64,000 nt of DNA from Rhodospirillales bacterium (GCA_016185145.1 JACPOB010000183.1:1-64000), one strand, 5' to 3'. Shown: positions 7,965 through 23,994, counted from the stretch's first letter. The notes: generated from the sequence alone by a model not told the origin. Made by a program: numbers and translations.

Positions 7965-8885
7965 CTAAGTGCGGATGATTTTGCTCCCGACAAGTGTGGG
8001 CTGAACGACAGAGAAAGCGCCAGTAGAACCGCCGCCACTCATCGAGCCGCCTAGGCTGCCACTGACGGTCACATTATGGACGTGACTCCAGTCGCTGGCC
8101 TGTCCTTGACCGCCGCCTTGCGCATTTCCTTGTCCGCTCACTGGAGCCGTGGTGCCGCCAGACAGTGTACCGCTCACAGATCCGCTCACTGACACACTCA
8201 CTCCGGCAGCGTTGGTAGTGCCGCCAAGTTTCTGCGCCAATGAGCCTCCGAGCGGCCCGCCGATACTGGCATCGACATAGCCGCGACTGTCCGGGAGGTT
8301 GAAGGTCGTGCTGCCGTCGCCCGCCCCGTAGGTGTTGCCGAGCGCGGCGAAGAGCGCGGGGTACTGGGTGCGGCTGATGGCGCTGCCGTCCTCGAACAGC
8401 CAGCCGGCCGGCGTAGAGGGGCTGCGGTTGACCTGCGATGTGCCGGTCGGGATCGCCTGGACCGAATCGGCGACGCGGAAGACGCCCGAGGAGGCGTGAT
8501 AGATCAGTCGCAGGATCGATCCTGCGGCGCACCAGTTCGGTGGCAGCTGGTACCAGGTCCCATTGTAGAAATGGCGGATGGGAATCGCGCCAAGGCCGTT
8601 CACATTGAACGTCGCGCCGGCGCCGGGAGCGACATGGAACTCGACCATGAAGCTCATGCCGTCGACCAGGGCGCCCGGCGCCACGCTGTAGCTGAGCGTG
8701 TAGGCCGTGCTTGAGCCGCCGGTGGTCTTGGGGATCGACCAGACAGCGAAGCGCTTCATTGCGCCCTGGTGGGCTCGCAGGACGTTGTTCACGCCCGAGG
8801 GCGCCATGCCTTCCGGAGCACCATCCGGCGCCGCCGCGTTGTTGGCGTTGTCGTCTTCGTTCCAGTTGCTGGCGTAGATGTCCAT
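7965..8885 (-). CDS. Phage tail collar-domain fibre protein
   Basis: The 306-aa protein begins MDIYASNWNEDDNANNAAAP, an N-terminal peptide common to phage fibres that dock on the tail, followed by GMAPSGVNNVLRA. Residues ~155-205 are a Tail Collar domain (PF07484 type: GWLFEDGSAISRTQYPALFA, YGAGDGSTTFNLPDSRG). The C-terminus is a Ser/Gly-rich repeat (SVSGSVSGTLSGG, SGSLGGSMSGG), probably a trimeric shaft or tip. It likely contacts the host surface. It is the last gene of the late operon, 36 bases after the Rz1-like gene. A second collar protein is encoded at 15071-15853. Confidence 0.88.
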   Translation of the reverse strand: MDIYASNWNEDDNANNAAAPDGAPEGMAPSGVNNVLRAHQGAMKRFAVWSIPKTTGGSSTAYTLSYSVAPGALVDGMSFMVEFHVAPGAGATFNVNGLGAIPIRHFYNGTWYQLPPNWCAAGSILRLIYHASSGVFRVADSVQAIPTGTSQVNRSPSTPAGWLFEDGSAISRTQYPALFAALGNTYGAGDGSTTFNLPDSRGYVDASIGGPLGGSLAQKLGGTTNAAGVSVSVSGSVSGTLSGGTTAPVSGQGNAQGGGQGQASDWSHVHNVTVSGSLGGSMSGGGSTGAFSVVQPTLVGSKIIRT

Positions 8886-12636: not shown

Positions 12637-12965
12637 CAGATGCCTCCCCCGATCCAGCCGCCGCGGGCGATGGCATCGGCTGGAATCGCTGGGCGTGGGG
12701 AGCCGTAGGCCATGCTCGCTGCCGGATCGCCCTTGAAGCCTGTCAGAAAGTCGGTGAGAGCATCGAGGCCAACGCCCAGTCCCGCGCCGAGCCCCGCAAC
12801 GCCATCGCCGACGTTGAAGCCCGGCGTGGGAGGCGGCGCGGACACGTTGAGACCCGGCACGGTCATCGACGGCGGCGGACGGAAGCCCGCGGTGGCAAGC
12901 TGGGCCAGCAGTTCAGGCGTGAAGGGCGCCGTGAGGCCACCGGCGCGAACATTGAATCCAGGCAT
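12636..12965 (-). CDS. 109-aa phage protein of unknown function
   Basis: Pro/Gly-rich: MPGFNVRAGGLTAPFTPELL, SMTVPGLNVSAPPPTPGFNV, a glycine-rich helix (GVAGLGAGLGVGLDALTDFL) and GGWIGGGI at the end. PGFNV/PGLNV recurs three times. The start at 12965 is chosen because it overlaps the PAPS-reductase-like stop (ATGA), and the stop overlaps the next ATG. Probably a minor virion component. Confidence 0.55.
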   Translation of the reverse strand: MPGFNVRAGGLTAPFTPELLAQLATAGFRPPPSMTVPGLNVSAPPPTPGFNVGDGVAGLGAGLGVGLDALTDFLTGFKGDPAASMAYGSPRPAIPADAIARGGWIGGGI

Positions 12966-13702
12966 CAGAGTTCTCCTTGCAGTGCGTTCCAATGGGGGGT
13001 TACTTCAGCGGCAACCGCTGCGAGTCTTGCGCGATAAGCGCCATGCAGATCGGGATGGTGCTTGCGCAGATACGCGGCGCGGCCCTCGCTCCACCAAGCC
13101 GGGCACGTCGCGCACTCCGGCGCGTTGACCCTTCGGCTGCGCTCGGGGCCGGCCCTGTGCTCGTAGATCCGGCAGATCGGCGCACCGACCTCGCGCAGGA
13201 ACTCGAACACCTGGTCGTGTGACCACTCCAGCAACGGCAGCCAGAGTTCGTAGCCCAGCGAGGTCTCGCCGCCCTCGTGCGGCAGCCGTGCGAGATCGGC
13301 CCGCTTGGTGCCACGGATCACCAGGGACACGCCATCCTCGATCATCCGTTGGTGCATCGGCACCATGAGATTGGCGGCACAGCACTCGAAGCGATCGACG
13401 ATGCGGCGCCGGCTGGCGCCGATCGCCAGGCCCATCGGCGTGCTCGTCGTCGGCACGAGGTCGCTCGGCAGGCCGACCGCTTCGGTCCATGCCTTGGCAT
13501 CCGTCTCGATACGGCGGAAGTCCGGCACCATCGCCTCGACTCTGTCGACGATCTCGCGCACCTCCGGGAGAAGGTCGCCGGTGTCGACGTGATAGAGAGC
13601 GAGGCGGTCCCAATGCGGGCGCAGCAGATACACCAGGGCAAGGCTGTCCTTGCCGCCGCTGAAGTGAAGGGCTCCGCGCCCGTGGCGATCGAGGGGGGTC
13701 AT
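12965..13702 (-). CDS. Phage PAPS-reductase-like PP-loop protein
   Basis: 245 aa of the phosphoadenosine-phosphosulfate reductase / adenine-nucleotide alpha-hydrolase superfamily. The PP-loop is exact (LHFSGGKDSLALVYLL, residues ~12-27) and binds the nucleotide phosphate. YHVDTGDLLPEV follows as in PAPS reductases. Cysteines occur in FECCAANLMVP and in APECATCPAWW, a CxxC-type pair that may bind metal or an Fe-S cluster. Host enzymes of this family reduce PAPS to sulfite; phage homologues are widespread but their substrate is not settled. It lies inside the virion operon, with 1- to 4-nt overlaps to both neighbours, so it is expressed late. The DndC route of DNA phosphorothioation is another possibility, but no Dnd partners are present. 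Confidence 0.85.
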   Translation of the reverse strand: MTPLDRHGRGALHFSGGKDSLALVYLLRPHWDRLALYHVDTGDLLPEVREIVDRVEAMVPDFRRIETDAKAWTEAVGLPSDLVPTTSTPMGLAIGASRRRIVDRFECCAANLMVPMHQRMIEDGVSLVIRGTKRADLARLPHEGGETSLGYELWLPLLEWSHDQVFEFLREVGAPICRIYEHRAGPERSRRVNAPECATCPAWWSEGRAAYLRKHHPDLHGAYRARLAAVAAEVTPHWNALQGEL

Positions 13703-14571
13703 CAGAAGAACACCAGCGCACTGCCGGCAAGGGAAGCTGCCGGGCCGATGTATTGGCCAGCGCCACCGCCTCCCCCGCCGCCAGTGGTCCAGCCCTGGGT
13801 CGTGCCGCTGCCGAGCGTCTGGCCGCCGGGAAACATGCCGAGATAGCGCTGCGCCATGCCCGTGAGGAAGTCGGGCTGGGCGTTCGCCTCGTACATGTAC
13901 CTGGCGTTCGCATCATCCCGGAGGCGCTGCGCATAGGCGTCGGCCGAACTGCCCAGACCCAGCAGTGCGCCGATGTTCTGGTAGTCCATCGCCTGGAAGC
14001 CCGGCAGCAGGCCCATCGCCATGCCCTGCTGACCGCGTTCGAACTGATAGGCCTGATTGCCCGCCTGTGTCGCGGCGCCTGCGAGATTGCGACCCAGCGA
14101 GTCCGTGGCGGACTCCACCAACTTGCCCGCCGCATTGCCGGCCTGCGGCGTCCTGCCGGCGCCCTCGAACATGCCGCCGATACCGGGAAGCACCTGCTCG
14201 TTGAACGCCTTGATGACCGGCTGCTGCGCGTAGTCGATCGCGCCCCGGAAGTATGGGTTGCCCGACAGGTCGAGGTACTTGCCGCCGATCGTGTCGGCGA
14301 TCTGCGACAGGGCCGCATTGCGTGCCGGATTGTTGCTCAGCGCGTTGGCCGCGTACTGCCAGCTTGTCGTCTCCGCCGACTGGGTGCGCTCGCTTTGCGG
14401 CGCGACGGTGCCGCCCGGATAGTAGCCGGGCGCGTCCGGATGCTCGCCCTGCCAGGCGCGAAGCTGCTCGATCTGCTTCTGCAGGTCGCCCTGGATGTAC
14501 GGATGCGGTTCCGACTTGCTCTGGTTGCTCGTGCTCTGGACCTGCATGCCCTGCGTTGGTTGACCGCCCAT
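13702..14571 (-). CDS. Putative internal virion / tail-associated protein
   Basis: 289 aa from the ATG at 14571, which has AGGAGG six bases upstream and overlaps the GNAT stop. The N-terminus is Gln/Ser-rich and disordered (GMQVQSTSNQSKSEP). The middle is alpha-helical and Ala/Gly-rich (NPARNAALSQIADTIGGKYL, EQVLPGIGGMFEGAGRTPQA, ESATDSLGRNLAGAATQAG) and the end is a poly-Gly stretch with a hydrophobic tail (GPAASLAGSALVFF). This resembles ejection or core proteins of short-tailed phages that penetrate the membrane. No enzymatic motif is seen. Confidence 0.55.
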   Translation of the reverse strand: MGGQPTQGMQVQSTSNQSKSEPHPYIQGDLQKQIEQLRAWQGEHPDAPGYYPGGTVAPQSERTQSAETTSWQYAANALSNNPARNAALSQIADTIGGKYLDLSGNPYFRGAIDYAQQPVIKAFNEQVLPGIGGMFEGAGRTPQAGNAAGKLVESATDSLGRNLAGAATQAGNQAYQFERGQQGMAMGLLPGFQAMDYQNIGALLGLGSSADAYAQRLRDDANARYMYEANAQPDFLTGMAQRYLGMFPGGQTLGSGTTQGWTTGGGGGGGAGQYIGPAASLAGSALVFF

Positions 14572-15074
14572 CAGAACCTCCTCATCCATGAAGCTTTGCC
14601 GTCAACGACGATCGGCGCGCCGCCGAACAGCCGGACGATGCGCCGCCAGCCGGCGCGGCTTTGCGTGCCCCAGACATGCGTGCAGCCGAGCGAGCGCGCC
14701 CATGGCTCGACCTCGGCCAGGAAGTCGGCGGCCCATTCGTCCATGCGCGACCCGCCGACCAGCCAGAGCCGACACCCCTTCTCGCCGATCAGCGTGATTT
14801 GCGTGGTGGCGGCAGCGATCATCTCGTCGCCGTCGAAGACGCCCCACAGCTGCGCGTCGTCCTGCAGCAGCCTTTGGATGACCTCTTCCTCGGTGCCGCC
14901 GTCCGTCCGCCTCGCGGCGCGCTCGAGCAGCGGCCATGCATGGCGCCAGATCGGCCCGACGTCGCGGAGACGGATTCCGGTGGCCATCCTCCTACGCGCC
15001 TCCGGCGCTCCGGAGGACAAGTCCTCGGGGTGCAGGGGCGCCTGCCCTGCGTAGCGTTCGCGAAGCAGGGTCAT
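14571..15074 (-). CDS. GNAT-like phage protein carrying a palindromic insert at its start
   Basis: 167 aa. The GNAT-like body (RLRDVGPIWRHAWPLLERAA, LWGVFDGDEMIAAATTQITL, RLWLVGGSRMDEWAADFLAE, RSLGCTHVWGTQSRAGWRRI) matches small acetyltransferase-fold proteins common in podovirus structural operons, whose targets are unknown. The ATG at 15074 overlaps the collar-gene stop (ATGA). Codons 2-29 are entirely the palindromic element, after which a second ATG (14987) opens the conserved MATGIRLRD. The protein may therefore have started originally at that point. AGGAGG touching the inner ATG is too close to be a good binding site, so the outer start is kept. Confidence 0.7.
   Translation of the reverse strand: MTLLRERYAGQAPLHPEDLSSGAPEARRRMATGIRLRDVGPIWRHAWPLLERAARRTDGGTEEEVIQRLLQDDAQLWGVFDGDEMIAAATTQITLIGEKGCRLWLVGGSRMDEWAADFLAEVEPWARSLGCTHVWGTQSRAGWRRIVRLFGGAPIVVDGKASWMRRF
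14988..15071 (-). repeat. Palindromic coding element, copy A
   Basis: 84 bases (28 codons). The minus-strand left arm is CCCTGCTTCGCGAACGCTAC followed by GCAGGG, itself a hairpin. The right arm is CTTGTCCTCCGGAGCG then CCGGAGGCGCGTAGGAGG. It sits exactly between the first codon of the GNAT gene and a second in-frame ATG. The right arm is shared with copies B and C. Confidence 0.65.
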
Positions 15075-15853
15075 GTGGCGATCACGTAGTTGAGGACGAT
15101 CGTCGGCTGCACGTTCTGCGATGCGCCGCCGCCGGCGTTCTGGATGCTGATGCCGGTGAAGTTGCTGCCCGTGTTCGGTGCGCCCCCGACGACGCCACTG
15201 GTGCCGAATATTCCGACGTTGGTGCCGTCACCGAATGCGGCGCGGCCCGTGTTGCCGGCATGGGGGATTTCCTGGCCGGCCGTCACGAAGTGAGCGTGGT
15301 CGAAGTTTCCATGAAGGTGGCCAGGGTCGCCGACCCCGTGAGCGTGCTGAGGCATGCGCTGGTCACCACCCGTCGCGCCGAGCGTCGCGCCATCGACGCC
15401 CGACACGCCAGCGGTGAGGCGTGTCGCCGTCGCCTCCTTGCCCGCGGGAACGCGGCCTCTCAGATCGGGCAGATTGAACGTGGTCGAGCCGTCGCCCACG
15501 CCATAGGCGGTGCCGATCGCGGCGAAGAGATCGGCATAGGTCGTGCGCGAAACCGCCTGGCCATGACAGAGCAGCCAGCCGTCGGGGGCCGTCGCGCCGG
15601 CATAGGGCATGATGCAGCCCGCCGGTACGCCGAGCAGCGTGTTGTAGTCGCGGATCAGCACGTTCACCCGCTCGGTGATCGAGCGCGTGTCGGCCGTCAC
15701 GGGCAGCGCGGGCAGGCTCACCTTCCTACGCTCCCTGACGGGAGCTTCGGAAGGCACGTATCCATCGAGACGGCGAAGGGGGACCCGTCCCCCGAAGCTC
15801 CGCAGGAGCGTAGGGGGATCATTGCGCACCTGCCGGCCGGACATCGAGGTCAT
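15071..15853 (-). CDS. Phage tail collar-domain protein with in-frame palindromic insert
   Basis: 260 aa. Residues ~13-44 are encoded by palindromic element copy B. Conserved sequence starts at about residue 45 (SLPALPVTADTRSITERVNV then LIRDYNTLLGVPAGCIMPYA). Residues ~88-135 are a Tail Collar domain (APDGWLLCHGQAVSRTTYAD, YGVGDGSTTFNLPDLRGRVP). The His/Gly-rich C-terminal region (RMPQHAHGVGDPGHLHGNFD, HAHF) is like T4 gp12-type metal-binding fibre tips, and the end SQNVQPTIVLNYVIAT is the classic collar-fibre terminus. It overlaps the 3' end of the stabilisation gene by 35 bases and the GNAT start by 4. Confidence 0.88.
   Translation of the reverse strand: MTSMSGRQVRNDPPTLLRSFGGRVPLRRLDGYVPSEAPVRERRKVSLPALPVTADTRSITERVNVLIRDYNTLLGVPAGCIMPYAGATAPDGWLLCHGQAVSRTTYADLFAAIGTAYGVGDGSTTFNLPDLRGRVPAGKEATATRLTAGVSGVDGATLGATGGDQRMPQHAHGVGDPGHLHGNFDHAHFVTAGQEIPHAGNTGRAAFGDGTNVGIFGTSGVVGGAPNTGSNFTGISIQNAGGGASQNVQPTIVLNYVIAT
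15721..15817 (-). repeat. Palindromic coding element, copy B
   Basis: About 97 bases inside the N-terminal part of the collar gene. The minus strand starts CCCCCTACGCTCCTGCGGAG with CTTCGGGGGACG, and ends CTTCCGAAGCTCCCGTCAGG with GAGCGTAGGAAGG. The outer arms are complementary and each arm contains a smaller hairpin. The reading frame stays open throughout. Confidence 0.7.
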
Positions 15854-17282
15854 CGATGCCCTGAATGTTCTGCCATGTCTCGCCCGCAGCCATGGTGGCG
15901 CGCACCCTGAAGTAACGGCCGCTGCCGTAGACCGGCGCTATGCCCGCCGGCGTGAGGCCGATGGGCGGTCCGTAACGCACGATCAGTTGCTGCTGCGTCT
16001 CGCGCGCGCCGATCGCGATCGTCGGGGATCCACCATCGATCAGCGGCCGACAGCCGCGGACGACCGACCTGGCGCCGTTGCCGGGATTGAACTCCCCCGT
16101 CTCCACGGTGGCCGCGAGCGGCGACCCGGAGAACGAGCCGCTGCGATGCGACGTATCGAAGGCGAACAGAAGCAGGGACAGCCGGCCCGTCCAATATGAC
16201 GAATCGAGCGAGTAAGGCAGCGTCTCGAGCGTGCCGAAGGGATCGAGCTGCTCCAGCGTGTAGGCCTGCTGGCTCACGCCGCCGAACACGAGCTCGCAGT
16301 CGAGGACCGCTCGGCTCCACCGCTCGGTGTGCCAATTGTAGATCAGCAGGCGGTTGGGCGTGCCGTTGTTGCCGTTCGCCGGGTAGGCGAAGACATAGAG
16401 GCCGCGCACCGGGTCGATCGCCGACGAGCTGCGGAAGTGGTTGGCCTCGTCGAACTCCGCCCAGAAGGTGCGATCGACCTTGCCGCGGCCGATCGGCGTG
16501 ATCGCCTGGCCGGCGCGCACCATGTAGAAGCCGGACTTGTGCAGGAAGAACGCCATGTCGAGCAGGGCGGCGACGCTGTTCGGAACACTGCAGCCGATAT
16601 CGTTGGCGATCTTGTCGATGCGGAAGACCACCGGCGGACCTTCGTAGGTCATGCGGCGCACGCTGGTTTCCTGGAAGATCAGGCCATACTCGCCGCCGAC
16701 CAGGCCGGTGACATTGCCGCCGTCAGGAAGGTCCTGCAGGTCGGCCTGGGTGGTGAGAGAAGGTGCCCAGGACTCGGCATTGTTCAAGCCCGACCACTGC
16801 ACGCGCTGGGGCGTGCTGCCGATCTTGCCCATCAGGACGAAGTCGCGGACCGTCGTGATGAACGTGCCCACCGGCGGCGAGCCGCCCAGCGCCGTCCAGT
16901 TGGTGCCGAGGCCGAGGTCGAACTTCTGTGGGACGTCGACGCCGTTGACGGCGAGGGCGAGCGTGCCGAATTGCGTGAAGCGCCACAGATTGTCGCCGCC
17001 CGGCGCGTACGGCCCGCCCGAGGTGCGCGACACGTCATTCCAGGACGTGCCCGACAGCAGGTAGAGCTTGCTGGCGTCGCCGGCGAACATCCTGGTGGCG
17101 CCGGCGGTGCTGCGGAACCACGCCGCACCCTGGGCGCGCGAAGCGAGCGGGTCGGATACGCCCGACAGCTCGTTGAGCGGCCGGTAGCTCTCCTCGGCCG
17201 GCACGACGTTCAGCGCCTCGCGCGCCCATTGACCGAGCGCGGGCATGTCGGGGCGCCATTCGGCGAAGGGAACTATCGACAT
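15819..17282 (-). CDS. Phage head/tail stabilisation protein (packaged-DNA stabilisation, P22 gp10-like)
   Basis: 487 aa from the ATG at 17282, which overlaps the stop of the ART-like gene. It is a beta-propeller-like protein with repeated short blades: GATRMFAGDASKLYLLSGTS, WRFTQFGTLALAVNGVDVPQ, FDLGLGTNWTALGGSPPVG, TTVRDFVLMGKIGSTPQRVQ, GLIFQETSVRRMTYEGPP, FFLHKSGFYMVRAGQAITPI. These blades match the short-tailed-phage proteins that plug the portal or form the tail hub. Size and order (after the adaptor, before fibres) fit. The exact homologue (gp4- or gp10-type) cannot be decided by eye. Confidence 0.7.
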   Translation of the reverse strand: MSIVPFAEWRPDMPALGQWAREALNVVPAEESYRPLNELSGVSDPLASRAQGAAWFRSTAGATRMFAGDASKLYLLSGTSWNDVSRTSGGPYAPGGDNLWRFTQFGTLALAVNGVDVPQKFDLGLGTNWTALGGSPPVGTFITTVRDFVLMGKIGSTPQRVQWSGLNNAESWAPSLTTQADLQDLPDGGNVTGLVGGEYGLIFQETSVRRMTYEGPPVVFRIDKIANDIGCSVPNSVAALLDMAFFLHKSGFYMVRAGQAITPIGRGKVDRTFWAEFDEANHFRSSSAIDPVRGLYVFAYPANGNNGTPNRLLIYNWHTERWSRAVLDCELVFGGVSQQAYTLEQLDPFGTLETLPYSLDSSYWTGRLSLLLFAFDTSHRSGSFSGSPLAATVETGEFNPGNGARSVVRGCRPLIDGGSPTIAIGARETQQQLIVRYGPPIGLTPAGIAPVYGSGRYFRVRATMAAGETWQNIQGIDDLDVRPAGAQ

Positions 17283-18391
17283 CAGTACACCATGTCCTTC
17301 GCCGTATCGAAGCGGATGCGGTACGGAGTACGGGCTGGCCAATTCGGCTCGGCCGGCTTGGAACGGAAGGGCCGATAGGATGCGCCGTTCGGCCAAGCGG
17401 ACCGTGTGTCGCCGTTCAGCGGATTGGGCTCTGCCTCGACGCGGAATCCCGGCGCAGGTGCAACTCCGGGTAGCGCAACACCAGCCATGAGATCGCTGCT
17501 ATCGCGCTTGGCCGGGTCGAAGCGGGCGAAGATCGAGCGCAATTGGTTGGGATGCTTTAAGACCCAAGCATTCTCGCCCAATTGGCCGGTAACTATGTTA
17601 GGATAGTTTTGGAACTGCAGGGCGTCGTAGCCTCGCTGAAAGGCATTCCGAATTGTCTCAGCAATGGAAATATCTAGAAGAGGGTCTCCAGCGCGTCGCG
17701 GATCGATATGGACTGGTGCGGCACGGTCCGCCCGAAAGAAGAGCGGCAGGATATTTTGGCCTGCTATACGTCCCGGAGGGGCAGCCATGTCGGCGTGAAC
17801 TCCTGCCACTTGGGGATTCTCTGCCGCCCACACCCCCTCCCGCGCCGCCCATGCGTTGGTTGCGCGAGTTTCTGGAGTCAGAGAGAAGCCGGGAACGATC
17901 GGTCGATTCGTCCCGTGATAAAGGGGAAGATCGGTCCTGAAGCCCATCGCGCGAGCGCGCGTCAAGCGAGTAGCCGCATCCATCGCCAAACCGCCGACCG
18001 TATCGATTGGCACGTCGACCTTCCGACCACCAGCTGCCAGTGCACCCCGCGGCGTCGCGGCCATACCTGCACCGACCGAGCCTGACAGGAAGGAACCAAG
18101 TGCCTCGGGCGTAAGCGTCCCCGTATCCTGTGCGCTGAGTAGATCCAGCCAGCCCCGTAGCCCCTCCCGGAAGACCTGCGGCAAGCTCCATTGCGGATCA
18201 GCCCCGCGATCGAGCCAGGATGCCGACCCAATGCGATTGGTGGTCAAGGGCAGCCAAGCGTTGACGGCCAGCCCACGTTCGTTCCCAAGGCCCGGATCGA
18301 TGCCATATTGCCGATCGGCATGCTTGGCGATCGCGTCGTAGTAAGGTGCCAGTGGTTTGCCCGTCAGGAAGTCTTGCCTTGGACCGCTCAC
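17282..18391 (-). CDS. Phage polyvalent-type protein with ADP-ribosyltransferase-like domain
   Basis: 369 aa. Residues ~150-300 look like the ART domain found in phage polyvalent proteins: LPLYHGTNRPIVPGF (H159 of the YHGT motif), GVWAAENPQVAGVHAD (the usual 'aYft..p..A..YA' strand-helix), GYDALQFQNYP, then GENAWVLKHPNQLRSIFARF with DPAKRDSSDLMAG, the characteristic C-terminal signature. The N-terminal ~140 residues resemble virion-protein linker sequence (AKHADRQYGIDPGLGNERGL). ARTs move ADP-ribose from NAD to proteins or nucleic acids. Injected phage ARTs such as T4 Alt modify host targets at infection. The gene is visibly more AT-rich than its neighbours but is coupled to both by 4-nt overlaps, which suggests a transferred cargo slot in the late operon. 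The catalytic Glu is probably E273, but this is not certain. Confidence 0.75.
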   Translation of the reverse strand: MSGPRQDFLTGKPLAPYYDAIAKHADRQYGIDPGLGNERGLAVNAWLPLTTNRIGSASWLDRGADPQWSLPQVFREGLRGWLDLLSAQDTGTLTPEALGSFLSGSVGAGMAATPRGALAAGGRKVDVPIDTVGGLAMDAATRLTRARAMGFRTDLPLYHGTNRPIVPGFSLTPETRATNAWAAREGVWAAENPQVAGVHADMAAPPGRIAGQNILPLFFRADRAAPVHIDPRRAGDPLLDISIAETIRNAFQRGYDALQFQNYPNIVTGQLGENAWVLKHPNQLRSIFARFDPAKRDSSDLMAGVALPGVAPAPGFRVEAEPNPLNGDTRSAWPNGASYRPFRSKPAEPNWPARTPYRIRFDTAKDMVY

Positions 18392-19056
18392 GGCATCCTC
18401 CCTGCCCGCACGCGGATCACCGGCACGCTCGAGGCCGTGATGCGCTGGCTCCGCGCGTTCAGGCCCGCGACGGAGGCGTTGTAGAGTTGCAGGTAGCGCT
18501 GCGCCTCGGTCTCGCCCTGGGTGAAGATCGCCGCCTCGACCAGGCAGCCGTAGAGATAGACGTCGGGATAGCTCACCAGGATGTCGTTGACGGTCGAACC
18601 CGCCGGCGTCGCGAGCTTGCGGTAGTAGCGCAGCGTCGCCGTGCCGCTCGACGGCGCGTCGAGCAAACGGAAGTTCGTGCCAGACACGGCGATCAGCCGC
18701 GTGCCGCCCAGGCTCTGTGAGCCGTAGCCGTCGAGCGTGCGCTGGCTCACGATGTCGAGCGGCGCATTGAGCGAATTGTTATAGGCCGAGATCAGTTCGA
18801 GGAAGCCAGCCGGCTGGGCCACGGTCCCGGACGTCAGCGCGAAGGCCGCATCGACGGTCTCCATCTCGGGGATGCGCAATGGATCCGAGCGCAGGGGGCT
18901 CGACGGCTCGTCGACGGCGACGCCGTAGTACATGCGCCGCTCGCAGTTCAGCAGGAAGTCGTCGAAGCGGCCATCGAGCAGCGCATCGCCGGTGCGCGCC
19001 AACCAGGCGAGCATCCCCGCCTTCAGTCCCGCGTAGGTGGTGATCTGCACCGACAT
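18388..19056 (-). CDS. Phage adaptor (head-tail connector, SU10-type)
   Basis: 222 aa from MSVQITTYAGLKAGMLAWLA. This opening, the DGRFDDFLLNCERRM helix and the later LRYYRKLATPAG, DILVSYPDVYLYGCLVEAA and RYLQLYNASVAGLNARSQR helices match the adaptor family that binds beneath the portal in SU10-like and other podoviruses. It starts within the upstream gene's stop. An upstream extension of the frame is Arg-rich out-of-frame sequence and is rejected. Confidence 0.78.
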   Translation of the reverse strand: MSVQITTYAGLKAGMLAWLARTGDALLDGRFDDFLLNCERRMYYGVAVDEPSSPLRSDPLRIPEMETVDAAFALTSGTVAQPAGFLELISAYNNSLNAPLDIVSQRTLDGYGSQSLGGTRLIAVSGTNFRLLDAPSSGTATLRYYRKLATPAGSTVNDILVSYPDVYLYGCLVEAAIFTQGETEAQRYLQLYNASVAGLNARSQRITASSVPVIRVRAGRMP

Positions 19057-19379
19057 CAGACCACGCCTCCGTCGGTGCGCAGCCAGCGCCAGTCGGCGCT
19101 GTTCAGCAGCTCGTCGACCTTGTCCTGGTGATCGGGGTTCCAGTAATCGACGCCGAGCTCTTTGCGCCACTTGGCGATGACGATCAGCGGGATGCGCGCC
19201 ACCATGCGGACGTCGCGCTCGCCGTTGTAGGGATCGCAGTGATTCTGCGCCTCCTTGTTCAGGTCGAGGATGGGCGTCGCCACCTGGGACGACTTTTGCG
19301 CCCAGTTGCCCTCGCCATCTTCGAGCCACCACTGAGCAAGTCCGGTGGCGGGATCGAAGCCAAGCAATCGCTGGGACAT
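19056..19379 (-). CDS. 107-aa conserved podovirus protein
   Basis: MSQRLLGFDPATGLAQWWLE, then ATPILDLNKEAQNHCDPYNG, ERDVRMVARIPLIVIAKWRK, ELGVDYWNPDHQDKVDELLN and a final DWRWLRTDGGVV. This layout (a FDP-x-TG start, a VARIP-x-x-VI-x-KW core and a 'YRYLRT' type end) recurs beside adaptor and capsid genes in many podoviruses, without a known role. ATG at 19379 (a GTG precedes it by one codon) overlaps the stop of the 65-aa gene. Confidence 0.7.
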   Translation of the reverse strand: MSQRLLGFDPATGLAQWWLEDGEGNWAQKSSQVATPILDLNKEAQNHCDPYNGERDVRMVARIPLIVIAKWRKELGVDYWNPDHQDKVDELLNSADWRWLRTDGGVV

Positions 19380-19576
19380 CACAGGATCTCCACCTGGTCG
19401 CGATCGGACAGGAACCTGGCGAGGTCTGCCGGAACCTTGAGGCGTGCGCGCTTGTCCACTCGCGTCGTCACCTGCGCCTCAGCCCAATCGGCACGGCCGT
19501 TGCCGTGCTCGTCGAGCGGCAGATAGACGTGGTTCACGGTGACGACGATGCTCACGTCGCTGGGCTTCTTCGCCAT
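19379..19576 (-). CDS. 65-aa phage protein of unknown function
   Basis: MAKKPSDVSIVVTVNHVYLP, then ADWAEAQVTTRVDKRARLKV and DLARFLSDRDQVEIL. A small alpha/beta protein immediately downstream of the capsid gene and coupled to the 107-aa gene by ATGA. The shape (beta strands, then VPADLARFL) resembles small head-completion or capsid-associated proteins, but no function can be assigned. Confidence 0.65.
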   Translation of the reverse strand: MAKKPSDVSIVVTVNHVYLPLDEHGNGRADWAEAQVTTRVDKRARLKVPADLARFLSDRDQVEIL

Positions 19577-19638
19577 GTCCAAGCTCCTGAGAAGGTGGTG
19601 GGAGGGGCCGGATCCCCCTCCCACGGTCATGATCCGTT

Positions 19639-20589
19639 TCAGGTGAGGTCGGCGACGATGCCGTTGCCGGCCTCGTTGCGGCTCTCCAGGGTCGCTTCGC
19701 CGATGATGTGGAACTTGCGGGCGTCGCCGGTCCGGGCGAGCTCCTCCTTCTTCCACTTGCGCAGCCACAGCAGGCGCCACAGGGACGGATCGATGACTTC
19801 GATCTCGCGCCCGCGCACGAAGCGGCTGGCCATGGCGTTGAAGGTGCCGAAGTCCGAGACGTAGCGATCGACGGCGCCGATCACGGTCGCGGCCTTGCCC
19901 TTGGGTTCCTGATACTGCGTGGCGATGCCGGTGAAGGCCGAGAAGGTCTGCTTCTGCGACGCGCCCATCAGCAGGATGGTGGGCTTGCCGCCCGCAGTCC
20001 ACGCGGCACGGACCACCGTCTTCAGCAGCGTTTCGGTCGAACCGCGCTGAGTGCCGTCGGTCGGCGCCACGGTGTTGCCCGCTGTGAAGCCGCCCGAGGC
20101 GCCGCCGGCGCCACGCGACACGTTGGACGTGATCCACGATTCGAAGCCGCCGAGCTTGCGCGTCACCGCGCCGGACTGGGCGATCGAAGCCTGATTCTGG
20201 CAAACGATGGCCTCGAGATCCATCTTGACGCGGCGGCCGGCCAGGGCAGTCTGGTAGCTGACCTCGCTGTCGCGGCCCGCCTTCTTCACCGCCTCCTGGG
20301 TGTTGGAGATGGTGAAGGGCTTCTTCAGGATCTGCGTACGGTTGCCCACGCGCACCGTCGGGGTGATCGCCGCCGCGGTCGTGTCGTCGCCTTCTAGGTT
20401 GCTGTTGTTCGTATCGGCATTGCCGAGCGCGTCCAGCTGCCATTCCTCGTAGGTGGCGTCGGCGTCACCCGAGCCGATGGTGCTGATGAACGGCGTCTCG
20501 TCCTTGTTGAGGATGGTGATGATGTTGTGCAGCGATTCGCGGTTGCCCACGGCGCTGTTGCTGATGAAGGTGTTGGTCGGTGCAGCCAT
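19639..20589 (-). CDS. Major capsid protein, SU10/DUF5309 type
   Basis: 316 aa. It begins MAAPTNTFISNSAVGNRESL then NIITILNKDETPFISTIGSG, the family hallmark, followed by YEEWQLDALGNAD, RVGNRTQILKKPFTISNTQE and KAGRDSEVSYQTALAGRRVK with DLEAIVCQNQASIAQSG, then KPTILLMGASQKQTFSAFTG and VDRYVSDFGTFNAMASRFVR. The end is FHIIGEATLESRNEAGNGIV. The family adopts the HK97 fold and builds the head shell. The usual N-terminal delta domain is absent, which agrees with a separate scaffold gene upstream. It is the most diagnostic gene for the phage type. Confidence 0.9.
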   Translation of the reverse strand: MAAPTNTFISNSAVGNRESLHNIITILNKDETPFISTIGSGDADATYEEWQLDALGNADTNNSNLEGDDTTAAAITPTVRVGNRTQILKKPFTISNTQEAVKKAGRDSEVSYQTALAGRRVKMDLEAIVCQNQASIAQSGAVTRKLGGFESWITSNVSRGAGGASGGFTAGNTVAPTDGTQRGSTETLLKTVVRAAWTAGGKPTILLMGASQKQTFSAFTGIATQYQEPKGKAATVIGAVDRYVSDFGTFNAMASRFVRGREIEVIDPSLWRLLWLRKWKKEELARTGDARKFHIIGEATLESRNEAGNGIVADLT

Positions 20590-20628
20590 TGCGGTTTCCT
20601 GTAACTAGAGGTCGTTTGCGCGGTTTGG

Positions 20629-21669
20629 TTACAAACCGCTTAGGCGGATCAGCTCGGCCGCATCGGCGATCGAGGCTCCGCCACTCTTCCTGAACCGCTC
20701 GCCCACTTGCCGGGCCGCCTCGCCCTGCCGGTTGCCGGCGCGCGCTAGGGCGCTGGGTGCCGGTCCGGGGGCGACTCGGGTCGGTGTCGTCTTCGCGGTG
20801 TTGATCGCCGTCGCGGCGCCGTTCGATGACGACGTCCTGACGGTCGAAGCCTGCTTCTGGGCCTGCTCGAAGCGCATGGCGGCGAGCGCCAGCTCGATGA
20901 TCGGGGCCTCATGAATGCCGTTGATACGGTCCGGCGAGATGCCCTTGGCAGACAAGAAGCTGCCGAGGTCGCCGTAGGTCTTGGCAGCGACGTCCGGACC
21001 GAAATACTCCGGCAGCTTCTTCGCAAGCTTGGCGTGCTCGACCTGTCGGGCCTCGATGAAGGCGCGCCCGGCCCGCTCGTTGGCGATGGCGATCTCGGCT
21101 TCACCACGACGGTTTGCCTCGAGCAGCAAGGTTGCCTCATGGTCGCGCTGCTGCTTCAGCCGAGCCCATTCCGCCGGGTTGTCCGCAGCGAGCTTGTTCC
21201 AGTCGACCTGCGACCACTTGTCGGCAAAGGCCTGCTGGAAGACCGGACCGTTCTGCCGCCACCAGGCCGCCGCCTGCTCGACGACGCCAACGGCGCCCTG
21301 GGCCACGCGCAGAGACTCTTCCCGCACCTGGGCGGCCTCGCGGGTCTTCTCGTTGACGAAGGCGATGCGCTGCTGCTCGTACTTGCGCAGCATCGGCCGC
21401 AGCGCCTCGGGCACGTCCTGCCAGGCCGCCTTGTCGTCGGCATTCCAGAACTCCGGCGCTTCGTCGGCGACCGCTACCTGCGGCTCGGTCTCCATCTCGA
21501 CATCGGCTTCGGATTCGTCCGCTGGTCCGTCTTGTTCGACCTCCGGGGCCGGTTCGGGCTCGCGTTCGACGTCTTCAGCCGGACTGGCGTCGTCCAGCAG
21601 CGCCACGGCGCCGGCGACATCGATGGATTCGGGGGCGGCTTCTGACACGGTCTCAGTTTCTGCGGCCAT
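20629..21669 (-). CDS. Phage scaffolding protein
   Basis: 346 aa. The N-terminal ~75 residues are strongly acidic and disordered (SPAEDVEREPEPAPEVEQDG, DESEADVEMETEPQ). A helical middle rich in Gln and Glu follows (MLRKYEQQRIAFVNEKTREA, EWARLKQQRDHEATLLLEAN) and the C-terminus is basic (QVGERFRKSGGAS then ADAAELIRLSGL). This layout, between portal and capsid genes, is that of scaffolds that guide prohead assembly and then leave. It overlaps the 91-aa gene by 17 bases. Confidence 0.75.
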   Translation of the reverse strand: MAAETETVSEAAPESIDVAGAVALLDDASPAEDVEREPEPAPEVEQDGPADESEADVEMETEPQVAVADEAPEFWNADDKAAWQDVPEALRPMLRKYEQQRIAFVNEKTREAAQVREESLRVAQGAVGVVEQAAAWWRQNGPVFQQAFADKWSQVDWNKLAADNPAEWARLKQQRDHEATLLLEANRRGEAEIAIANERAGRAFIEARQVEHAKLAKKLPEYFGPDVAAKTYGDLGSFLSAKGISPDRINGIHEAPIIELALAAMRFEQAQKQASTVRTSSSNGAATAINTAKTTPTRVAPGPAPSALARAGNRQGEAARQVGERFRKSGGASIADAAELIRLSGL

Positions 21670-21928
21670 ACAGGCTCTCCTTCAGTTGTTCACGACGCTC
21701 CTTGAGCTGGATGTCGGCCTCGTAGTCGTCGACCAGGCTCGACAGCGCGGCTTTCACTTCGGTGGCGACGCGGGCGCGGTTGTAGGCGATCTCGCGTGTC
21801 GTCATGTCGTCGGGATCACTGGTCAGCACGCGACGCATCTCGTTGTTCACGAAGTCGTCGAACAGCCAGCCGGCATCGGCCAGCACCTCGCGCGCCCGTC
21901 GATATCTCTGTTCATTGTCGTCGGTCAT
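21653..21928 (-). CDS. 91-aa phage head-region protein
   Basis: MTDDNEQRYRRAREVLADAG, then WLFDDFVNNEMRRVLTSDPD, EIAYNRARVATEVKAALSSL and LKERREQLKESLYGRRN. All-helical and charged. It lies between portal and scaffold genes with ATGA overlap to the portal stop, as in other podovirus head modules. Perhaps a head-assembly chaperone or scaffold cofactor. Function unproven. Confidence 0.65.
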   Translation of the reverse strand: MTDDNEQRYRRAREVLADAGWLFDDFVNNEMRRVLTSDPDDMTTREIAYNRARVATEVKAALSSLVDDYEADIQLKERREQLKESLYGRRN

Positions 21929-23994
21929 GAAGGAATCCTCGGTTCTGCTTGAGCGTCGGCCTGAAGGCTCGCCTTCAAGCCCGCCTTGAAGCGCTCGATT
22001 TCCGCCCATTGCCGCACCTTGAATTCGGCGATGGCGATGTCGGCCTGGGCCTTCTCGCGCTTGATCTGCATGTCGGCCGCCGCCGCTTCGCGCAGGATCT
22101 CGATCTGTGCCTGTACGGTGAGCAGCTCCGGGCTCGGCGCCGGCTGCGCCGGCGGCTGTGCCGGCGGGGCGCCGTTCACCACCCTGTCCGCCGACTGGAA
22201 GAACAGGCCCGGCGTCTTGTAGCCCAGGATCTCGGTGAGCTTCTGGGCGCCGTTTGCGATATTCTCGGCGGTCACGAACGGGCCTTGCGCATTGCCACCC
22301 TGCAAGGCGATCAGCTTCTCCTGCAGGCTGCCGACCAGGGCGAGATGACCGATCGCCTGCTCGCGATTGCCGATGCCGACCACGTCGACCGACAAATCCA
22401 TGTCGTCGGGCCACTGGCTGGGATCGCAACTTGCGAAAGCGCCACCCACGCGCGGCCAATAGGCGACTGGCCCGGTCGCCGCGCGCTTGATGGCGCGATA
22501 GATCAGTCGATAGAGCCGCTTGATCGCGGTCTCCGCGAAGGTGCGCGCGATCAGGTCCTGGCGCTGACTGGCCGCCGACATGATACGGTCGAGGCCGCCC
22601 AGCGTCTTGTTGAGACTCTCGGCGTCGAGACCCTGATTGTAGCGGCTGACGCCGGTGCGGTTCTCGCGCACCGTGGCGAGGTGCTCGAGCGCCGACAACA
22701 CGGCGCCGCTGACATTCGGCACCTGCAGCCAGGCGACATGGTTGTCACCGGGACGGGCGCCGGGCTTGAGCCGGATCGGCGAGCCCGGCACCCAGTCGAT
22801 GAGGCTGTCGAGATTTACCTGGTCGGAGATCACCGGCCGCGGCCGATTGACGATGTAGAGATTGTCGAGAAGGCCGCGCGTCAGGACGGATCCGAGCTGC
22901 TGCAGGTCCTGCGTCTGGTCGAACAGAGACCGACCGACGATGGTGTGCGGCATCAGGATCGGCGTGGCCAGGGCGATCGAGGCGGGGCCCGACCACTCCA
23001 CGCGCTCGACGATGCGGCCTGCGGTTCCGCCACCATGGGCATACACCACGCGCAGCAGCTCCGAGATGCCGTCGCCGTCGTCGTCGGCGCGGATATAGGC
23101 CACGACCAGCCACAGCGGCCGTTCGCTATCGCCCTCCTCCGCCCGCTCGGCATCGTCGAGCACACCTTCGTTGCGCTGCGCCGCCTCGTCCGACAGGCCC
23201 TTGTCGGCGTTCAGATCATCGATCTCTTCCTGTGTCAGGCCGAGCTTGACCAGATCGGACGAGGTGACGCGCTTGATGAAGCCCAGGAACGACGCTTTGT
23301 CCTCGTCGCGTGCGACCGGGCTGAAACGGATGTCTTCGGGTGCGATGCTGTCGACCACCACCCGCTTGCGCTTGTGCGTGACGGTGATCGCTCCTCCTAC
23401 GCTTCCTGCGGAAGCTACGGAGGACAAGGCCGCCAACGTCCCCGGTAGAGCCTCGCCCTCCGAAGCCTCCGCAGGAGGCGTAGGAGGGTCCATCGTGACC
23501 TCGGCGCCCTGCGCCTGGGCTTCGGCGACGATCAGGTCAATGGCGTCCTGCGTCAGGTGCTGCACCGGCACACTGCGCTTGTCCTCGACGTCTTCGAGAT
23601 CGACCGCGACGCCGCTCAGCCGGTACATCAGGGCGTCCTTGAGCAGCGAGGAGATGACGCGGAACCCGTCGTTCTGGCGCATCAGAACATGCGGGACGTA
23701 CTCGCTTGCCTCTTTCGCCCACTTCTCCTGGCCAGGCGCCGTCGGCGCGAACTTGGCGAGGTCGTCGGAGCCGGTGAAGACACGCATCAGACCCGGCATC
23801 AGCGATTCGACCACGTCGGCGAACTCCGACGTTACGATCGAGGAGGCGCCCTCCTGCTCGTCGCCATACGGCTGGCGATCGTAGTAGGCGAGCGCCTCCT
23901 CGCGGACCGCGCTCAATGCTGCGTCCTGGAAGCCGGATGCGGCTTCCTCTTCCTTGCGCAGCAGCGCGATCAACTCTTCGTCGGAGAGCGGCAT
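21925..23994 (-). CDS. Portal protein (P22/SU10-like) with in-frame palindromic insert
   Basis: 689 aa, the size of P22-class portals. Motifs seen: LAYYDRQPYGDEQEGASSIV, TSEFADVVESLMPGLMRVFT, PHVLMRQNDGFRVISSLLKD, IDDLNADKG, PHTIVGRSLFDQTQDLQQLG, LTRGLLDNLYIVNRPRP and GVSRYNQGLDAESLNKTLGG. The 12-mer forms the DNA channel at the unique vertex and binds terminase. Residues ~170-201 are encoded by palindromic element copy C, in a loop between DIAL-type helices and the KRKRVVVDSIAPED strand. Its ATG overlaps the terminase stop by one base (TAATG). Confidence 0.88.
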   Translation of the reverse strand: MPLSDEELIALLRKEEEAASGFQDAALSAVREEALAYYDRQPYGDEQEGASSIVTSEFADVVESLMPGLMRVFTGSDDLAKFAPTAPGQEKWAKEASEYVPHVLMRQNDGFRVISSLLKDALMYRLSGVAVDLEDVEDKRSVPVQHLTQDAIDLIVAEAQAQGAEVTMDPPTPPAEASEGEALPGTLAALSSVASAGSVGGAITVTHKRKRVVVDSIAPEDIRFSPVARDEDKASFLGFIKRVTSSDLVKLGLTQEEIDDLNADKGLSDEAAQRNEGVLDDAERAEEGDSERPLWLVVAYIRADDDGDGISELLRVVYAHGGGTAGRIVERVEWSGPASIALATPILMPHTIVGRSLFDQTQDLQQLGSVLTRGLLDNLYIVNRPRPVISDQVNLDSLIDWVPGSPIRLKPGARPGDNHVAWLQVPNVSGAVLSALEHLATVRENRTGVSRYNQGLDAESLNKTLGGLDRIMSAASQRQDLIARTFAETAIKRLYRLIYRAIKRAATGPVAYWPRVGGAFASCDPSQWPDDMDLSVDVVGIGNREQAIGHLALVGSLQEKLIALQGGNAQGPFVTAENIANGAQKLTEILGYKTPGLFFQSADRVVNGAPPAQPPAQPAPSPELLTVQAQIEILREAAAADMQIKREKAQADIAIAEFKVRQWAEIERFKAGLKASLQADAQAEPRIPS
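23392..23487 (-). repeat. Palindromic coding element, copy C
   Basis: 96 bases (32 codons) inside the portal gene. Minus strand: CCTCCTACGCCTCCTGCGGA with GGCTTCGGAGGGCG at one end, and CTTGTCCTCCGTAGC with TTCCGCAGGAAGCGTAGGAGG at the other. Outer arms CCTCCTACGC / GCGTAGGAGG are exact complements. It encodes a Pro/Ala/Ser/Glu-rich flexible segment and does not break the frame. Confidence 0.75.

Follow-up and report, generated by a model that had tools for sequence, protein, structure and literature searches.

The window analysed here is a stretch of 64,000 nucleotides from a Rhodospirillales bacterium (GCA_016185145.1 JACPOB010000183.1:1-64000), the assembly of which comprises 7.77 Mb in 201 contigs and is estimated to be 92% complete and 7.6% contaminated; from its nearest relatives, we infer that the genome is a Reyranella. 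The genes form a podovirus-like head operon, with a terminase, portal, scaffold, major head protein, virion structural protein, and tail collar. Palindromes that the original prediction had placed at 14988-15071, 15721-15817, and 23392-23487 are present there and are called elements A, B, and C; their having the same orientation as the genes, also claimed, is meaningless for a palindrome. The features are as follows.

14571..15074, minus strand: GNAT-like gene, with its core from 14987 and a possible element-coded N-terminal extension
14988..15070, minus strand: element A, insert at the overlap of the collar stop and the GNAT start; model matches at 14983-15023 and 15039-15074 (weak)
15071..15074, minus strand: ATGA (TCAT on the plus strand), holding the collar stop TGA and the probable original GNAT ATG
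15071..15721, minus strand: tail collar gene (PF07484), the true start of which is the GTG after element B
15718..15721, minus strand: second ATGA duplicate, GTGA in the window (TCAC on the plus strand), at the collar gene start; ATGA in three other prophages
15722..15818, minus strand: element B, palindromic insert that separates the genes for the virion structural protein and the tail collar
15819..15822, minus strand: first ATGA duplicate (TCAT on the plus strand), stop of the upstream structural gene
15819..17396, minus strand: virion structural protein gene (phrog_3287), upstream of site B
20629..21669, minus strand: head scaffolding gene, element-free in the window; in related prophages, in-frame elements lie in two of its linkers
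21925..23994, minus strand: portal gene (SU10_portal PF23899, phrog_1216), with element C in its hypervariable linker
23392..23487, minus strand: element C, a 96-bp near-perfect palindrome read in frame as portal linker

The core of the GNAT-like gene had no Pfam or PHROG match, and a search of viral contigs found no relatives of it. Elsewhere in the prophage, an ORF with an LYHGTNRPI motif (17282-18391, minus strand) separates two structural genes that, in loci L119, L155, and L196, stand no more than 40 bp apart; it may be a cargo gene. An 83-nt repeat, 73% identical between 8290-8372 and 15465-15547, suggests that a second collar-like tail gene may stand ~7 kb from the first. The 245-aa ORF at 12965-13702 (minus strand) is, by appearance, of the PAPS-reductase/ATP-pyrophosphatase type.

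A dispersed family of paired hairpins

The unit of the family is a half-element, CCNCC-TWC-GC-N-loop-GC-TWC-GGNGG or its reverse complement, which forms a 10-bp hairpin with a 3x3 internal loop. The usual full copy consists of two inverted half-elements (~31 bp each) facing each other round a variable centre; like MITEs, the elements are short, have terminal inverted repeats, and lack a transposase gene. A covariance model of the half-unit detects A, B, and C in the window, with main matches at E 5e-8 to 1e-12. Element C folds strongly (-80.8 kcal/mol, z -10.8) and B is an imperfect palindrome (z -3.7), while A as a whole folds weakly (z -1.7): it has the left module of the family only, and in the right half another hairpin, CCTGCGTAGC..GCGAAGCAGGG, takes the place of GCGTAGGAGG. 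The outer arms CCTCCTACGC/GCGTAGGAGG, proposed as common to all three, are complete in C, approximate in B, and half present in A. Standard pairs fill 98.7% of the paired cells in an alignment of 117 distinct halves, drawn mostly from four element-rich Reyranella genomes with a few from others, and 106 double changes were counted against 24.6 in shuffles, a contrast that is still large given that the alignment, because it was built by the covariance model, leans towards structure. Sliding the strands abolishes the covariation signal.

The genome-wide covariance search called for by the original prediction found further copies: among the matches listed, at least 24 half-units at E < 1e-5 in the window's own genome, at no fewer than about 15-17 sites. 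Three sites fall in 8.5 kb of the window versus at least about 17 in 7.77 Mb (Poisson p near 1e-6), an enrichment in the prophage. Spread within the genus is patchy: 16 of 65 Reyranella genomes have a match at 1e-4, and most have none. Six are rich, with at least 17-45 half-units (G000, G012 [= R. soli], G014, G020, G056, and G065). The portal type is found in all six, and no rich genome is among the 57 genomes without it (Fisher 3e-7), an association confounded by descent because the rich genomes look closely related by nrdJ identity. Elsewhere in the class, related units occur, again patchily, in 12 of 289 genomes at 1e-6, the window's own genome counted, and a core-motif scan of viral contigs matched one contig.

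Most copies are intergenic, and those in frame in unrelated protein genes are a minority. Lengths, proposed as a test, are multiples of three in 7 of 29 copies, with no overall excess. As our codon-usage frame caller separates sense and antisense poorly in this high-GC DNA, genic and intergenic calls at named sites rest on comparison with homologues. Orthologous sites hold differing internal sequences, and recombination or gene conversion must therefore also be at work. Among chromosomal sites, different internal modules were seen at L110, L137, and G000:C40:1034-1128 and at L124, L145, and L161, suggesting module exchange or gene conversion. At L112-L115, L121, L126, L138, and L150, CTAG-class elements lie amid another dispersed palindrome, CTCTCCCCC(G)-CTAG-GGGGAGAG. 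At L117 (G014:C58), elements lie between tandem paralogous genes for ABC substrate-binding proteins, one of them at the stop codon of the first gene.

Insertion at stop and start codons

Comparison with relatives that lack the insert, another check that had been suggested, was informative: sites of the A and B type were once empty and show an ATGA duplication, and at C the relatives have a variable linker. Site B is empty in prophage loci L196 (GCGCAATGAGCC) and L197 (GCGCAATGATGC), where a single ATGA holds both the structural stop and the collar start; the empty site is also given as CAATGAGCC and CAATGATGC, respectively. Four prophages, including that of the window, have an element at this site, flanked at each end by ATGA, one copy of which is GTGA in the window. 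Insert lengths of 101, 131, 79, and 71 bp include no multiple of three, and consequently element B is intergenic and the long frame through it is due to chance. The claim that the insertions are in frame and keep the frames open fails for B; it is true of C and plausible for A.

Sites A and D show the same pattern as B. The collar gene ends in ...ACATGA, and the GNAT gene probably once started at the ATG within it; the CAT at 14985-14987, on the other side of element A, is the duplicate start. ATGA flanks the site-A insert on both sides in the G020 prophage, and L197, which has a different gene upstream, has an insert-free GNAT start (GTGATCGCCACC). The placement originally given to A, exactly between codon 1 of the GNAT gene and a second ATG, was near right, but insertion at a stop/start overlap is a better interpretation than insertion inside a gene. 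The left ATG of element A opens a frame of 29 codons running into GNAT, and each of the four prophages examined keeps the corresponding frame open, over 45, 78, 87, or 102 nt, always a multiple of three; one of the four is L196, which has no clear element at site A. This is suggestive of translation of element A as an N-terminal extension of GNAT; it is no proof, because the four prophages are related.

In the G020 prophage, 10 kb of the same operon has about eight sites with elements: A and B, three more gene junctions, two in-frame copies in scaffold linkers, and one at the portal N-terminus. The three extra junctions are one ATGA overlap and two TGATG overlaps, all uninterrupted in other prophages. 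On the chromosome, an FAD oxidoreductase gene (C185:115.7 kb) is interrupted at codons 3-4 by a copy of 90 bp. An empty-site query, in which a single CTAG joined the two flanks, had full or partial matches in 62 of 65 genomes. The site is empty in 30 relatives, which read GATGGCCGCTAGCGAG or close variants (uninterrupted ATG GCC GCT AGC GAG), and, among the loci read, filled only in G000 and G014, as CTAG-86 bp-CTAG (+90 bp). The TAG doubles as the stop of an overlapping upstream gene, and the downstream frame is kept (+30 codons) in both genomes despite several substitutions.

Across the family, at 35 of 144 element ends, some of them one orthologous site counted in different genomes, an ORF with coding-like codon usage stops no more than 2 nt from the stem, in 33 cases at offset 0 or -1. 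Positions drawn at random from these loci gave a mean of 1.2 and a maximum of 6 in 300 trials. TAG, TGA, or TAA stands before 56 of 145 ends, for which the consensus is YNRY|CCTCCTWCGC. Compared with empty sites, the 4-bp target duplications are CTAG on the chromosome and ATGA at stop/start overlaps in prophages. Because empty sites already have TAG and TGA, the target itself includes the stop codon, which is not merely supplied by the element. Many full copies, C among them, have no clean 4-bp direct repeat, a point against the explanation preferred below.

Related hairpin units abut tRNA 3' ends in several alphaproteobacterial families (L162-L167 [G039], L277, L278, L279, L283, and L286; also L082 and L078 in the window's own genome). 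At L278, the 13-bp 3' end of a tRNA-Pro (TCACTCCGACCAT) is found on both sides of the element, a duplication that misfits a simple 4-bp rule and counts against the explanation preferred below.

Copies in frame and the portal linker

Every genic copy that was verified sits either in a variable linker or at the start of a gene. In all homologous Reyranella portals, the linker at site C is highly variable in length and sequence: the window and G020 have the element there, G056 has a half and a fragment, and G014 has a single hairpin, while the residues in the remaining portals are unrelated. In the closest portal (G004, 87% identical), the linker is equally long but has no element. Element C, which had been thought to add 32 flexible residues to the portal, consequently replaced or overwrote the linker, and no clean target duplication is definable for it. 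The clean in-frame cases are nrdJ, the FAD oxidoreductase, and the phage scaffold. In nrdJ, on the chromosome, one hairpin (G000) or a full element (G056) lies in a linker rich in Pro and Ala, where the other genomes compared have unrelated sequence. The scaffold copies of G020 lie in variable linkers, and one is shared by the R. soli prophage.

Mobility and relation to known repeats

The evidence supports A, B, and C as members of a dispersed mobile family, some copies of which lie in frame in unrelated proteins. On sequence grounds, we think it likely that the element is a non-autonomous MITE-like palindrome, built of two inverted hairpin modules round a variable centre, that inserts at a short target with a 4-bp duplication. 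The target contains stop codons (TAG in CTAG, TGA in ATGA), and for that reason many copies lie exactly after a gene. At an ATGA overlap, the duplication supplies the stop of the upstream gene and the start of the downstream gene, so that neither is broken. Coding copies occur where the frame is kept and the protein is tolerant, whether in variable linkers (portal, scaffold, NrdJ) or in first codons. In the window, A and B are stop/start-overlap insertions and C fills the portal linker. Movement would occur in trans by a DDE-type transposase with a CTAG/ATGA-type target, although none of 30 DDE_Tnp_1 (PF01609) loci in the six element-rich genomes has the element's ends, and no transposase ORF is evident between the paired single halves that stand 2 kb apart at L132. 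Harmless positions would owe something to target sequence and something to selection, which would have to purge harmful copies, and prophages would help to spread the element. Tentatively, we extend this to the possibility that the element prefers stop codons and stop/start overlaps as targets, so that both genes are repaired by the duplication it makes, and that prophage morphogenesis operons, which are rich in such overlaps and in variable linkers, are its main reservoir and its vehicle between strains.

An unlikely alternative is that the element belongs to a REP/BIME family, comparable to the GTAG or CGTC repeats, and is mobilised by a RAYT (Y1 tyrosine) transposase. Hairpin units with internal mismatches, inverted dimers, proximity to stop codons, and occasional copies within ORFs are typical of REPs (PMC3733652), and RAYT-type (PF01797) genes occur in 19 of 31 genomes searched. 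However, such genes are also present in element-free genomes, no examined RAYT locus is flanked by the element, its ends have no GTAG or CGTC tag, and 4-bp target duplications were observed here at empty sites. To our knowledge, target duplication is not expected of Y1 transposition. That the copies are functional 3'-end structures (terminators, mRNA stabilisers, or translation insulators) kept by selection and not mobile is improbable: most relatives lack the element at the same sites, empty sites are exact, some copies are in frame inside proteins, there is no T-run, and an Rfam search with the element gave no family match. What such a role would explain is the strong hairpins, the copies right after stop codons, and the adjoining tRNA 3' ends in other families, and the element may have a regulatory side-effect.

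We give almost no credence to true kinship with Rickettsia palindromic elements (RPEs), vertical or horizontal. Both are ~100-bp palindromes with open frames, repeated genome-wide, with some copies in frame in unrelated proteins, and to this extent the predicted Rickettsia-like spread into coding DNA holds. However, the sequence appears to differ, most copies of the element are intergenic and often stop-codon phased, they sit in prophage structural genes, and the CGTC tags of RPE-4 and RPE-6 (PMC3733652) are absent. The target duplication of RPEs is listed as unknown (PMC2229807), whereas that of the element is shown here. CTAG-type bacterial MITEs are similar in being non-coding, with terminal inverted repeats and a 4-bp duplication, and CTAG is the target of the 86-92-bp class. 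The CTAG duplication is also like that of IS5, the target of which is 4 bp with the consensus CA/TAG/A (PMC11677980). Here, however, each end of the element is itself a hairpin, ATGA overlaps serve as targets, and no parent IS was found among the DDE_Tnp_1 loci examined. By description, the element can also be set beside Bru-RS, the 103-105-bp palindromic intergenic repeats of Brucella, another alphaproteobacterium (PMC2267715). Because most copies are intergenic and many directly follow stop codons, its behaviour is closer to REPs and MITEs than to the gene-filling elements of Rickettsia.

REPs within ORFs and REP ends that supply TAG stops have been reported (PMC3733652), and in-frame fusions of MITEs and RPEs are well described (PMC2229807, PMC10969869); the general kind is therefore already known. 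Our literature search found no paper connecting Reyranella with such repeats. As far as the searched literature shows, what is new is this family, how densely it populates a prophage morphogenesis operon, and the evidence from empty sites that it duplicates 4 bp at stop/start overlaps. A mobile palindromic family in an alphaproteobacterium other than Rickettsia, within a podovirus-like structural operon, had been predicted and was found. RPEs have lacked a clear insertion mechanism, and a comparable system is now available outside Rickettsia; with many genomes, exact empty sites, and defined duplications, the non-lethal entry of selfish palindromes into genes can be studied directly. The element shows a route into overlapping genes without breaking either one, and it provides portal, scaffold, and ribonucleotide reductase proteins with new linker sequence.
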